A stretch of DNA of 64,000 nucleotides, from contig JAUWGH010000001.1 in assembly GCA_030606485.1 (NCBI GenBank), positions 372,001 through 436,000 of the forward strand, read 5' to 3'. The translations under genes and the position numbers were made by a program. The notes beneath the pieces were generated by a model that was not told where the DNA came from, ran no database searches, and was given only the letters and a program-made list of their open reading frames with translations. Numbering within the stretch: position 1 is the first letter of the stretch; every line of letters begins with the position of its first letter. Origin of the DNA: Promethearchaeota archaeon. GTDB taxonomy: Archaea > Asgardarchaeota > Lokiarchaeia > Sigyniarchaeales > SOKP01. Below are positions 6,850 through 62,720 of this stretch, one piece after another.

Positions 6850-7020
6850 ATTAACCAATTGGTAATAATACTAGGCTATTTATTAAATATATTCTTAAAA
6901 ATATTTCATTGGTTTATTAAATTAAATAGTAACGAAATTAACTAAACTAAAAATCTATTAAAAAGATTTATTAATAAAAATCGAGATGTATTATTGAACT
7001 TACTGAAAAATTAGTAAATA

Positions 7021-8311
7021 TTTCTAATTTTTTAGTATCACTACGAGTCCACCATCACTTTTACTACGGATAGGGCTGTGTATCGTAGCAAATCCTTTTT
7101 TTGTAGAAAGGATTCCTCGTTCAAGGAGGGTTGATGCGATAGGAATACGTAACAATGCTTATTTTTCAAAAATTTAATCATAATGTTGATCGCAGAATTA
7201 AGATCACGATCAAGATAATTTCCACAATCGCATTGAATAATTCTTTCGGAAAGACTTCTTTTTTTAAGCTTTCCACAAATTGAACATCGTTGAGTAGTAT
7301 ACGATTCGTCAATTCTTATAACTCTTTTCCCTACAAGTCTCGCCTTGTAAGTTAAGAATTCGACAAAACGACCCAACGATCCCGTATTGTTAACAGAATA
7401 GTTTAAAGTTTTGTTAGCTTTATTTTTTTGAGCATTTCCCGTAGATTTTTTCTTTTTAGCCATCTCTTTCACATTTAGGTCTCCGACAATTATTGTATTT
7501 GCTTTGGTATGTGTCACAATCTGTTTTGAAATTTTATGTTGAAAATCACGCATTTGATAAGCACACTTTTGATGCATCTTCCTGAATTTGTGATGATATT
7601 TTCTCCACTTTTTACTATATTTTTTACAGTGGTCTCGCCTTGATTGAATGTTTTCTATTTTCTTTTTCCAATAGAGATCTGCTCTTTTATTTTTAATTTG
7701 AATAAATTTAGAGTGCAAATTCACCGCAGATACAATATTTGAAACTCCTAAATCAATTGCTTGATATAGCCCATTATCTTTGTATCTTGGTGCTTGAACT
7801 TCATATGTAATAGAAATAAACCATCGATTTTGGAAATCCTTAAAAATTTCCACCTGTTTAACCATTCCAACAGCACAATAAGGATATTTAAGAGAAAATA
7901 TTAATGGAATTTTTGAAGGGTGTTTATGCGAAAATTGTATCACTTTCTTTTCTAATTTGAAACCACTCTGATTATAACAGATTGTTGTAAATTTTTTTTT
8001 TGATTTAAATTTAGGTGGTCGAGCTTGTTTATCTCCATTTATCCATTTCGTAAAAAACGATTTATAATCGGAGTTGAGTCTTTTCAATATCATTTGTAAA
8101 ACTTTAGAATAAACCCATATATATTCAGGATATTTCTTTTTAAGTAAAGGTAATTTATTTTGTTGCTCTAAAGAAGATATATATTTTTTGTCGTCTTTTG
8201 GCTTATATTTGTTTTTATTCCAATTTTCTATTCTTTCAGCTAACGCAAAATTATATATTAATCGACATTTTTACGACAAATCCCACAGAATCAGTTCTTG
8301 ATTCTTTGAGG
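7021..8311 (-). mobile_element. IS200/IS605-family (IS1341-like) element, tnpB only, probably degenerate
   Basis: The limits are approximate. At the 5' side of tnpB an inverted repeat GAATCA-GTTCT-TGATTC (8288-8304) inside CCCACA...TTTGAGGG could be the left-end hairpin. At the 3' side, CTACGA and TCGTAG (about 7032-7078) can pair, and the 3' end of tnpB (encoding QPSLNEESF) overlaps the place where the guide RNA and right end normally lie. I see no target duplication, as expected for this family. Ends were not verified against another copy. Confidence 0.5.
7041..8093 (-). CDS. tnpB: TnpB-type RNA-guided nuclease (IS200/IS605 OrfB), 5'-truncated
   Basis: The RuvC-like core is present: AIDLGVSN (Asp114), the RuvC-II strand IIVGDLNVKEM (202-211), a zinc knuckle CSIC...CDC (270-290) and DRDLNSA (295-301). 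At RuvC-II the usual Glu before the Asp is Gly204; Glu263 in IDESYTTQ is a candidate replacement, as in TnpB/Fanzor lineages with a rearranged catalytic Glu. The frame is open upstream of the first ATG to 8270 and encodes typical TnpB N-terminal sequence (CRLIYNFALAERIENW), but it holds no start codon and is preceded by an in-frame TAA, so the first 20-30 residues are lost. It may be inactive as a protein. No tnpA is present. Confidence 0.85.
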   Translation of the reverse strand: MILKRLNSDYKSFFTKWINGDKQARPPKFKSKKKFTTICYNQSGFKLEKKVIQFSHKHPSKIPLIFSLKYPYCAVGMVKQVEIFKDFQNRWFISITYEVQAPRYKDNGLYQAIDLGVSNIVSAVNLHSKFIQIKNKRADLYWKKKIENIQSRRDHCKKYSKKWRKYHHKFRKMHQKCAYQMRDFQHKISKQIVTHTKANTIIVGDLNVKEMAKKKKSTGNAQKNKANKTLNYSVNNTGSLGRFVEFLTYKARLVGKRVIRIDESYTTQRCSICGKLKKRSLSERIIQCDCGNYLDRDLNSAINIMIKFLKNKHCYVFLSHQPSLNEESFLQKKDLLRYTALSVVKVMVDS

Positions 8312-8527
8312 GAAATATTCGAATTTTTTGAGTTAGATTCACAATTATTATTCTATAAAGAATAATGACAATTTAACTCGCTTAGGGTTCTAATTTAGAA
8401 AATTTTGCCTAAAAATAAGTATGTTTATATTTAAATACATTTTTAACTATATTCTAATATAATAAAAGTACTTAACACAATGATTTTTATAATTTAATTT
8501 TAAATAGAGATTACAATTAAACTTATA

Positions 8528-8541
8528 AGGTGTAAAAAATT
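8528..8541 (+). promoter_or_regulatory. Shine-Dalgarno-like AGGTG ahead of an ATT codon (E2 gene)
   Basis: AAGGTG ends at 8532 and matches the archaeal anti-Shine-Dalgarno complement GGAGGTGA. An in-frame ATT follows at 8539, six bases after the G. The GTG inside the motif cannot start the gene because it is followed directly by TAA. This site therefore decides the proposed start of the E2 gene. Confidence 0.5.
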
Positions 8542-9048
8542 AGAGAAGAAACTGATTATGTAGAAGCAATTGAGGCATTTAAAGAAATTAATTTTGTAAT
8601 TATCGAACCTTGGGGAAGATCAATAGATCATTTAAGGCTTACTATAATTGGAAAACCAGGAACTCCATATAATGGGGGTAGATTCTTGTTTGAGATAAAA
8701 ATGCCTGAGAACTATCCTTTTGCACCTCCATATGTTTATGCCCATACTTTAATGTGGCATCCTAATATCGACTCTTCAATTCCACCAGGAAAATTGAATA
8801 TCTGTCTTGATCTTATAAATCCCGATCTTGTAGGTAAGGTTGATGCCTCTACTGGAGCTTCAGGATGGACTCCTTCTAAAACTTTAACAAATATTGTTGA
8901 ATCATTGAAGGGAATAATGCATGTGGAACCACCATTTTTTAATCCTGGCGATCCTTTAAATCATGAAGCGGGAGAACAATATTTTAGACAAAAATCGAAA
9001 TTTGATAAAAAAGCAGAGAGCTGGACAAAGAAATACGCTATGGATTAG
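8539..9048 (+). CDS. Ubiquitin-conjugating enzyme E2 (UBC fold), probable non-canonical ATT start
   Basis: Numbered from the ATT, the protein has 169 residues. The UBC fold is easy to follow: helix 1 (EETDYVEAIEAFKEI), strands WGRSIDHLRLTIIGKPGTPYNGG, the PENYPFAPPYVY turn, the HPN motif (74-76), catalytic Cys89 in NICLDLI, and SGWTPSKTLTNIVESLKGIM with the following helices. An insert of about five residues lies between HPN and the Cys. E2s receive ubiquitin from E1 on this Cys and pass it to a lysine. The E1-like gene lies 750 bases away on the other strand. No ATG, GTG or TTG exists between the in-frame TAA at 8533 and 8686; a start at the TTG at 8686 would delete helix 1 and two strands. 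Confidence 0.85.
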   Translation: MREETDYVEAIEAFKEINFVIIEPWGRSIDHLRLTIIGKPGTPYNGGRFLFEIKMPENYPFAPPYVYAHTLMWHPNIDSSIPPGKLNICLDLINPDLVGKVDASTGASGWTPSKTLTNIVESLKGIMHVEPPFFNPGDPLNHEAGEQYFRQKSKFDKKAESWTKKYAMD

Positions 9049-9799: not shown

Positions 9800-11392
9800 T
9801 TACAGATAGGAAACGATTACATTATATTTTTTTATTTCTAATTCACCAATATCTTTACCTAAAGGCGTAAGTGTTACAACGTCATTACTCGTTATTTTTA
9901 GGCTTTGTAATAGAGCTTCAGGATCTTTAAAAGTGGGAATTGAGGGATGCCAAAGAATCTCTTTATTCATTGAATTCGTGATCATCCACTTTTCGGAATC
10001 TAATTTATAACCAGAAACATCCAATGCACTAAAAATGTCTTTAACCTTTGAATTAAATGGAACTACAATACTAACATTTTCCTCTCCTTCAATATCCCCA
10101 CAATCAATGCAATCTTCTCGTTTAAACACAGGAACCTGTTCGAATATCCCATAAATTCCGCTATAATTTACATAAGGAGGATCCATGGGGGGACCAATAT
10201 CCCTTCCCTTTGCTCTAAATATTAATTTTAGTGCCTCTTGGGATTGAATACTTGCGATAATTGAACTAACAGTCTGAACCGCAGCGATTTTATTTCCTAA
10301 AATATTTTCCATATCTTCAAATACATAATTTGGACCGAAAGTATCTCGAATATTAATCTTCCACTTTTGTATTTCTTCTTCTGATAATGTTGATAATTGC
10401 TCATCAGAGAGGTTTTCTTTAAAAACTCGTTCTCGTAATAATTCTAATTCCTCTTTAGCTAATTCCATTAATTTATATATATCCTCATCATTATCCAAAT
10501 CTGGCATCCATCCATATTTCTTTTCAAAATTTAACTCTGCTTTTAAAACACAATGATTTCTATTTCTCGGAATACCCTTTAATGTGCATGCTGCAATTAG
10601 TTTATCATCAGGTGGTGGAATAGGAACTAGACACCGATAACAAGCTGTTTGATCAAGATAATCTTCAGAATATTTTTCATCAAACTCATTTTCAACTTGC
10701 TGGCGAACTTTTTCAACAACCGGCTCTATAAATTGAGATTTTAATAGAGATATTCGCTCCTCAAGCTTTTCTATACTTTCTTGAGCAGCAAAATATTCAC
10801 TGTATTCTTCTTCAGATAAATCCCATAATTTTTCTTGTGCTATTTTATCTATAACTTTTTCTCTCTCATGGAATTTTATATTTGAGCCTTTTGGGATAAT
10901 GTTTTGAACATGACCCTCAAATCCTACAGTACCACCCTCAACCATTGGCTTTTTTAATCTTAAAGCAATCTTGTTTAAATCCATTCTTGCTCTAACATTA
11001 TCTAATGCAGCAATAATAACATCCGATTCTTCATACACCTTCATTGGAAGATTTTGTAATTTTTCGAAATAATACTCAACTTCGAGAAACGGAGCCATCA
11101 GTTTTAAACGCTCTGCAGCAACCTCAACTTTTGTTCTACCCTCATCTCCTGCATGAAACAACATTTGTCTTGAGAGATTTGAGGTTTCAATTTTATCCAT
11201 ATCAACTAAAATTAATTTCCCTATACCCATTAAAGCCAAATCCTTAGCAATCTCGCACCCCAAGGCTCCGATTCCAATAATTAAAGCACTGCTCCGTTGA
11301 AATGTCTCTTGATCCCAGCCTTCAACGAGCTGCTGACGAGCATACATCTTTCTTTCTTCTAAGGAAAATTCCCTTTTTTCCCTCGGTTCCAT
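9800..11392 (-). CDS. E1-like ubiquitin-activating enzyme (UBA3/Uba2-like) with C-terminal ubiquitin-fold region
   Basis: The adenylation domain begins at about residue 15 (YARQQLVEGWDQ), with the nucleotide loop GIGALGCE (40-47), VDMDKIETSNLSRQMLF (63-79) and Lys88. A helical insert of about 70 residues (175-245) is charged. The Cys domain holds CYRC (251-254) and the catalytic candidate Cys269 in AACTLKGIPR, matching the CTI/CTLK...PR segment of UBA3 and UBA1. A second pair CIDC (428-431) completes a zinc site. The last 90 residues resemble the E2-recruiting ubiquitin fold. The enzyme would adenylate a ubiquitin-like protein and hold it as a thioester for the nearby E2. Presence of the Cys and ubiquitin-fold parts separates it from MoeB/ThiF. 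Confidence 0.93.
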   Translation of the reverse strand: MEPREKREFSLEERKMYARQQLVEGWDQETFQRSSALIIGIGALGCEIAKDLALMGIGKLILVDMDKIETSNLSRQMLFHAGDEGRTKVEVAAERLKLMAPFLEVEYYFEKLQNLPMKVYEESDVIIAALDNVRARMDLNKIALRLKKPMVEGGTVGFEGHVQNIIPKGSNIKFHEREKVIDKIAQEKLWDLSEEEYSEYFAAQESIEKLEERISLLKSQFIEPVVEKVRQQVENEFDEKYSEDYLDQTACYRCLVPIPPPDDKLIAACTLKGIPRNRNHCVLKAELNFEKKYGWMPDLDNDEDIYKLMELAKEELELLRERVFKENLSDEQLSTLSEEEIQKWKINIRDTFGPNYVFEDMENILGNKIAAVQTVSSIIASIQSQEALKLIFRAKGRDIGPPMDPPYVNYSGIYGIFEQVPVFKREDCIDCGDIEGEENVSIVVPFNSKVKDIFSALDVSGYKLDSEKWMITNSMNKEILWHPSIPTFKDPEALLQSLKITSNDVVTLTPLGKDIGELEIKKYNVIVSYL

Positions 11393-61610: not shown

Positions 61611-62720
61611 TTATAATAGTTTTAAGAAAAGTTTTTTTAAATCATTTCCTAATTTTTGAGGCGTTAAATATCTCTCAAATAATTTATATCCATTCCGAGC
61701 AATTTTATCTCTTAAATTTTTATCTTCATACAATGTAGTGATCGAATTAACCAATGACTCAACATTTGCATTTTTACATAAATAAACATTTTTCTCATGT
61801 GTAAGAAGTTCCCTTACTGCTATTGTATTTGCGGTTATTATCGGTTTTTTCATCGCTAACGCTGAATAAACTTTATTAGGTATTACAATATTTGATTTTA
61901 ATGTACCCCCAAAAATTCCGAGTTGGATATCAGAATGTTCAATTTTTTCTGGTAATTGACTTAAAGGAATATGTGGTATCAAATCAACGTTATTTAAATT
62001 ATACTTTTTTCTAAATTTAATTATCTCTTGAAATAAAACATTTCCTGGTTTCCCACCAACAATCTCAAATTTAAGTTCAGGATAACTCTTTAGAATTTTA
62101 GCTGCTTCCATTATAACTTTTATACCTTGTAATGGTATATATGTGCCATAAAAACCAATAATGAATTTGCTTTTCTCTCTATTATACTCTCGGGGATAAA
62201 AAATTTCAGGATCAGAACCTACTAAAATTATCTTAATTTTACTTGGCTTTTGATAAAATAACTTAGAAAAGATCTTTCCATGAATTTTAGTATCCGATAA
62301 TATTAAATCTGCTTTTTTAAATGAATAATAATCAATAAAATAAGAAATTTTTGCTAATATTGACTTCTCATTAATATATTTATAATCATAAACATATGAC
62401 AAATAAGAAGAAATAAATGGATCATAAATAATGGGTTTATTAGTTAATCGCTTCACTTGAAGCACAGAATCGAACCCAGGATATCCAACTATTACTAAAT
62501 CAAAATCCTGTGAAATTATTAATTTTTTTAATAATTTTAAACTAGTCTTAAATGAGTTAATTATATATCTTCCTTTATTAACTTCAATAAAAGTTGCACT
62601 TTTTTCATTACATTCAATAACATTTATGCCATTATTAATTAAGCCTTTGATTAATACTCTATTTCGAATTGCTCCTCTGGAATAGGTCCCAAAATAACAA
62701 ATGTTTATTGAATTAGTCAG
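61611..62720 (-). CDS. GT4-like glycosyltransferase, probable CTG start overlapping the previous stop
   Basis: From CTG at 62720 the protein has 369 residues, the usual GT4 length. The start NSINICYFGTYSRGAIRNRVLIKGLINNGINVIE is the normal first strand and helix of the fold; IIGFYGTYIPLQGIKVIMEAAKIL and PNKVYSALAMKKPIITANT mark the donor half. The Glu of the EX7E motif is weak (FGGTLKSNIVIPNKVYSALAM), so the sugar donor class is uncertain. No ATG, GTG or TTG lies between the in-frame TAA (rc of about 62726) and the conserved sequence; the first is GTG at 62465, which would cut off 85 residues. The flippase stop TGA overlaps the CTG as CTGA, like common ATGA overlaps. Confidence 0.85.
   Translation of the reverse strand: MTNSINICYFGTYSRGAIRNRVLIKGLINNGINVIECNEKSATFIEVNKGRYIINSFKTSLKLLKKLIISQDFDLVIVGYPGFDSVLQVKRLTNKPIIYDPFISSYLSYVYDYKYINEKSILAKISYFIDYYSFKKADLILSDTKIHGKIFSKLFYQKPSKIKIILVGSDPEIFYPREYNREKSKFIIGFYGTYIPLQGIKVIMEAAKILKSYPELKFEIVGGKPGNVLFQEIIKFRKKYNLNNVDLIPHIPLSQLPEKIEHSDIQLGIFGGTLKSNIVIPNKVYSALAMKKPIITANTIAVRELLTHEKNVYLCKNANVESLVNSITTLYEDKNLRDKIARNGYKLFERYLTPQKLGNDLKKLFLKLL

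Follow-up and report, generated by a model that had tools for sequence, protein, structure and literature searches.

Reviews of archaeal translation initiation name AUG, GUG and UUG as start codons (PMC7531240). Other start codons are described for single bacterial genes regulated by IF3, namely the AUU of infC (which encodes IF3 itself), the ATC of infC in Streptomyces and the GTC of sigR (PMC5472188). A closer example is the AtubA tubulin of Kariarchaeaceae, for which an ATT start has been inferred (PMC13394414, 2026). Here we describe a gene for an E2 ubiquitin-conjugating enzyme in 64,000 nucleotides of a Promethearchaeota archaeon from the Lokiarchaeia (positions 372,001 to 436,000 of contig JAUWGH010000001.1, assembly GCA_030606485.1; hereafter the window, in whose numbering all coordinates of this stretch are given). 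Translation of this E2 very probably begins at an ATT codon (8539-8541, forward strand), with a strong Shine-Dalgarno (SD) sequence compensating for the codon.

The E2 gene resembles infC and sigR in that the use of AUU or AUC is conserved and is overlooked by annotation programs, but it is archaeal and is accompanied by genes of diverse function. The autoregulation that marks infC-type AUU genes does not apply, the window gene encoding an E2 and not an initiation fidelity factor. As with AtubA, the deposited Asgard protein is truncated, and the fold is restored by beginning at an ATT further upstream that has a ribosome binding site; AtubA, however, is one gene in one genome, treated in a remark in a methods section, whereas the E2 start is conserved through a series of orthologues, is joined by other genes of the kind and is backed by a statistical test. 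The pairing of non-AUG starts with stronger SD sequences has been reported across prokaryotes as compensation for GUG and UUG (Belinky et al., PMC5622118), and the same pairing is seen here, though that study dealt mainly with GUG and UUG and found the switch from AUG to AUU to be nearly absent (1 of 61,358 ancestral AUG starts), while the Asgard cases are AUU, AUC and AUA (together AUH, or ATH in DNA). A search of open-licence papers returned no report that AUH starts are conserved in E2 genes of archaea or used throughout a lineage.

The E2 gene and its start codon

The full-length gene runs from 8539 to 9048 on the forward strand and encodes 169 residues before a TAG stop (9046-9048), an assignment supported by Pfam PF00179, by a UbcH5/Ubc1 fold and by orthologues. 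Six bases 5′ of the ATT stands the SD sequence AAGGTG (8527-8532; AGGTG core 8528-8532), followed by an in-frame TAA (8533-8535), also present in two sister species, that excludes any in-frame start further upstream. This includes the only canonical codon nearby, GTG 8530, which lies 5′ of the TAA and forms part of the SD. The first canonical start codon in frame is TTG 8686-8688, 49 codons 3′ of the ATT, which has an SD match of only 3, is used as a start at that position by no orthologue, and would give a wrong short form of 120 residues. An earlier note on this DNA had drawn attention to the gene for want of an ATG, GTG or TTG between the TAA and the TTG and for the AAGGTG ahead of the ATT; reading of the frame confirms the missing canonical start, and both coordinates and spacing are correct. 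From codon usage, the chance of a 49-codon stretch with no canonical start is about 0.18. The gap is not rare in itself; it gains significance because the stretch has coding character and is conserved among orthologues. A coding model predicts 519 genes in 800 kb of the window's contig, and the upstream coding score of the E2 gene is the third-highest among them.

The same note had claimed that the domain is complete only if translation begins near 8539, that the 49 codons encode helix 1 and strands 1-2, and that the product from 8686 would be a broken E2, all of which is borne out by the predicted protein. The Pfam family UQ_con (PF00179) matches the 169-residue sequence with E=7.2e-26 (90.9 bits against a cut-off of 27) and is covered from model position 25 to 139 when the protein begins at the ATT, compared to only 49-139 when it begins at the TTG. 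An AlphaFold2 model built from 22 orthologues (mean pLDDT 83.5) places within residues 1-49 a helix (2-14), two strands (20-25 and 28-37) and the start of a third (48-54), so that the short form would be deprived of helix 1 and strands 1-2. The best structural matches are UbcH5 enzymes, with TM-scores of 0.7-0.75. The HPN motif (H74-P75-N76; 8758-8766, forward strand) and the putative catalytic Cys89 (8803-8805, forward strand) are invariant in the 22 orthologues. The UBC fold, the HPN motif and the position of the active-site cysteine are shared with eukaryotic UbcH5/UBE2D and yeast Ubc1 (PDB IDs: 2c4p, 1fzy, 1fxt), from which the Asgard E2 differs by an identity of only ~27-32% in structural alignment and by an extra loop after Cys89 (residues ~95-112).

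Whole-genome and GTDB searches yielded 62 orthologous E2 genes with a readable start, from Lokiarchaeota, Prometheoarchaeum, Harpocratesius, Sigynarchaeota and Helarchaeota; orthologues are 65-97% identical to the window protein. All 62 start at the homologous codon, ahead of R-E-[E/D], giving the pattern [M/I/V/L]-R-E-[E/D]. The codon is ATG in 27, TTG in 8, GTG in 2, ATT in 15 and ATC in 10, and ATA occurs in none of them. The earlier note had named an ATG at this place as telling against an ATT start; the comparison finds ATT or ATC in 25 of the 62, including the sister species. In the window's genus, TAA-AAA-ATT and the SD are common to three species, each from its own assembly, and the ATT is fixed there; the 25 ATT/ATC starts come from five or more genera of the family and from other families too. 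In other genera they follow different upstream stops, and still other genera have ATG at exactly that codon. At nine loci, the window and eight others, the interval from stop to ATT/ATC is free of canonical codons (L001, L031, L032, L050, L054, L063, L067, L069 and L086, from genera g1, g3, g4 and g8). The tree of the E2 genes requires at least nine changes at the start between ATT/ATC and a canonical codon, and 19 when every change of codon is counted.

Proposed pairing with the 16S tail and the competing explanations

The 3′ end of the 16S rRNA in the window's genome, located by pattern in a gene that is divided between contig ends, reads ...GGATCACCTCCTTT and is complementary to AGGAGGTGAT, and thus to the SD of the E2 gene, whose position agrees with the enrichment of G at -13 to -7 of ATG genes on the same contig. 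Every one of the 25 ATT/ATC orthologues has an exact anti-SD match of 5-7 bases at a spacing of 6-7, while the ATG orthologues have a mean match of 3.9 and reach five bases in only 5 of 27 cases (Fisher p=3e-10, uncorrected for relatedness). We propose that the AAGGTG would pair with the 16S tail (AUCACCUCC) and hold the AUU in the P site, where the ordinary CAU initiator tRNA could pair with its A and U, the mismatch at the third position being tolerated and methionine inserted; the strong SD would offset the weakness of that mismatch. If the CAU initiator does read AUU, the E2 should therefore begin with Met-Arg-Glu-Glu and be complete at 169 residues. The initiator tRNA gene of this genome indeed has the anticodon CAU, an A1:U72 pair and three G:C pairs (GGG/CCC stem), and tRNA-Ile(GAU) has the elongator-like G1:C72. 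Among the 30 of 31 tRNA matches that were read, a variant initiator reading AUH was not found, the CAU initiator being the only one. Initiation at the AUU itself, with methionine as first residue and compensation by the SD, is what we infer from these sequence patterns.

Two observations weigh against this proposal. In 16 of the 25 ATT/ATC orthologues there is also an in-frame GTG or TTG at codon -3, which could be taken for the start; the E2 of Harpocratesius repetitus FW102 (L079), for example, has ATT with a GTG at codon -3. With the exception of L083, the GTG at this position forms the last bases of the SD, with a spacing of six, and E2 genes with an ATG start show the same GTG; for these reasons it is better interpreted as part of the SD than as a start. 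The association of SD strength with start codon is also partly due to shared ancestry: among phylogenetically independent pairs that differ in SD strength none runs contrary to the trend, but they are too few for significance. The related idea that the window's gene starts at GTG 8530 with readthrough of TAA 8533, or simply at TTG 8686, would have the merit of a canonical codon in either case, but we consider it very improbable. GTG 8530 belongs to the SD itself, TAA or TGA serves as the stop at -2 or -3 depending on the genus and without a common context, and the form from 8686, with neither helix 1 nor strands 1-2, is unsupported in every orthologue. The earlier note, which saw one genome, had left open whether the ATT starts the gene or whether a base error or mutation had destroyed an ordinary start, ATT being one base away from ATG, and left the E2 a damaged copy. 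Here the first alternative is strongly supported and the second refuted, keeping next to no probability: three congeneric species assembled separately have the same TAA-AAA-ATT, at least four more genera have ATT/ATC with other upstream sequences, and the protein is intact and conserved. The repeated changes of start codon on the tree, together with conservation across genera, rule out an error or lone mutation as the cause.

A small bulge-helix-bulge (BHB) intron at the 5′ end could in principle supply the E2 frame with an ATG from further upstream, and orthologous E2 genes do have predicted BHB introns of ~30 nt within the gene. We regard this too as scarcely credible, since a scan for such an intron gave no match in the window, none in L031 and one weak match in L032, the SD lies directly ahead of the ATT, and relatives have ATG in place of the ATT. 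More serious, though still unlikely, is the possibility that the AUU serves the E2 alone as a means of regulation, its weakness as a codon tying E2 output to initiation fidelity through aIF1, much as IF3 represses the GTC start of sigR and the ATT/ATC starts of infC (PMC5472188). The persistence of ATT/ATC in E2 genes across genera, with ATA never seen, would fit this, as would the discrimination of aIF1 against non-canonical archaeal starts in the Sulfolobus work cited in PMC6237735. However, other E2 genes of the same family use ATG, the strong SD sequences work against the weakness of the codon and not with it, and AUH starts occur in genes of many unrelated functions, so that a general tolerance with SD compensation is likelier than an E2-specific switch. 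Because of this discrimination by aIF1, AUH-start genes as a group could nevertheless respond to its level. A broader version, in which AUH codons make up a fourth regular class of starts in Asgard archaea, dependent on the SD and forming a regulon whose output tracks how stringent initiation is (aIF1 level), and in which the E2 is a member, appears similarly doubtful. The E2 start is best read as one instance of low-frequency AUU/AUC/AUA initiation in Asgard archaea, which on the sequence evidence would affect ~1.5% of the genes sampled.

ATT, ATC and ATA starts in other genes

From the window's genome, 978 kb on contigs C10 and C13 were analysed. On the window's contig there are further genes whose coding sequence extends up to an SD-positioned ATT, ATA or ATC. 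Four were compared with relatives. Two encode proteins that we provisionally take to be 2-hydroxyglutaryl-CoA-dehydratase-like (ATA) and lipocalin-like (ATA); the other two encode a coiled-coil protein (ATT/ATA) and a TPR protein (ATT/ATC). In all four the ATH codon and a GGTG-containing SD are kept within the genus. In other genera the homologous position is occupied by ATG in the genes for the lipocalin-like and coiled-coil proteins; in the remaining two genes an ATG lies either there or close by. Not every upstream extension is of this kind: those of an aminotransferase gene (C10 -552070) and of two other genes (-489827 and +321119) lack a convincing near-cognate codon at SD distance and appear decayed or frame-broken, and a further candidate (C10 +519086) has no relatives with which it could be compared.

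For a statistical test we counted SD-positioned ATH codons upstream of the first canonical start, against other codons and in all three frames, in 2.18 Mb with 1,434 genes from four Asgard genomes: that of the window (G000), G016, G042 and G056, the last from another family of the phylum. ATH is enriched in frame (31/743 vs 41/4342, odds ratio (OR) 4.6, p=4e-9), and there is no enrichment out of frame in the same genomes (OR 0.68 at +1 and 0.50 at +2). Among the individual genomes, G000 (p=2.5e-5) and G016 (p=4e-4) show the enrichment clearly; it is marginal in G042 (p=0.04) and does not reach significance in G056 (p=0.07). The in-frame cases fall in 29 genes (2.0%), or ~1.5% after subtraction of background. 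Conserved families make single cases convincing. For instance, in a NifU/IscU gene of G016 that apparently begins at ATT (L248:11316-11675, reverse strand) residue 2 aligns to model position 1, and G056 has apparent starts at ATA for Hel308 (L293:12836-15052, forward strand) and at ATT for MoaD (L292:16702-16980, forward strand).

Standard gene finders shorten such genes because the start is non-canonical. If ~1.5% of Asgard genes start with AUU, AUC or AUA, annotated proteomes would hold many N-terminally shortened proteins, including eukaryotic signature proteins such as the E2, and this would affect claims on fold, function and phylogeny. How strictly a start is selected would also become a testable question in the archaea most closely related to eukaryotes; eukaryotes themselves depend on eIF1 for the same choice.

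The window contains a second gene with no canonical start, for a glycosyltransferase (61611-62720, reverse strand), whose conserved frame runs 85 codons past the first canonical codon, GTG 62465, and ends at a stop just before CTG 62720; the frame has the same length in two sister species. Candidate starts are the CTG, which follows AAGGG, or an ATA 12 bases on.

Probable introns in sister E2 genes and features near the window's E2

At least 11 sister E2 loci have insertions of 29-39 nt that disrupt the reading frame or introduce a stop codon; four positions in the gene are affected. Insertions fitting a BHB, 29-32 nt long, are found in L061:3001-3537, L065:1643-2179, L067, L085, L086, L088, L089, L091, L092 and L093:3001-3597, the last with three insertions in one locus. 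Our model comprises a 4-bp central helix between exon 1 and the 3′ part of the intron, bulges of 3 nt and a cut after the second base of the bulge. Applied to 11 insertions, its predicted splicing restores the conserved protein exactly (MMHV-E-PPFF, PPYAYAV, FPENYPF, EAGEQYF); shuffled introns hardly ever fit the model (P <=0.001 each). The central helix covaries (ACGT/GCGT, ATGT/GCAT, ATAT/GTGT). Both insertions of L084 (L084:1-489) and the middle one of L093, although similarly placed in the gene, depart from the strict geometry, and may represent a relaxed BHB or another mechanism. Judged by their sequences, the insertions resemble very small introns of archaeal type in an Asgard mRNA, apparently acquired on several occasions within a single gene; archaeal mRNA introns have been experimentally confirmed for cbf5 (PMC2738675). 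The window's own E2 is continuous, with no intron and no 5′ BHB. Many tRNA genes of the window's genome (loci L305-L334) carry introns, those for the initiator and Ile-GAU included, and because they are a large share of the total the BHB splicing endonuclease should be active there.

A TnpB-like insertion of ~1.4 kb (IS200/IS605 OrfB, labelled from sequence alone; 6996-8409), seemingly with a decayed 5′ end, lies 130 bp 5′ of the E2 gene. The site is occupied in L032 and empty in L031, and because L031 has the same ATT we rejected the insertion as its cause. Near the E2 gene and in the opposite orientation is a gene for an E1-like protein with a ThiF domain (9800-11392, reverse strand; PF00899, E=3.7e-56), which is likely the partner E1 of the window's E2.
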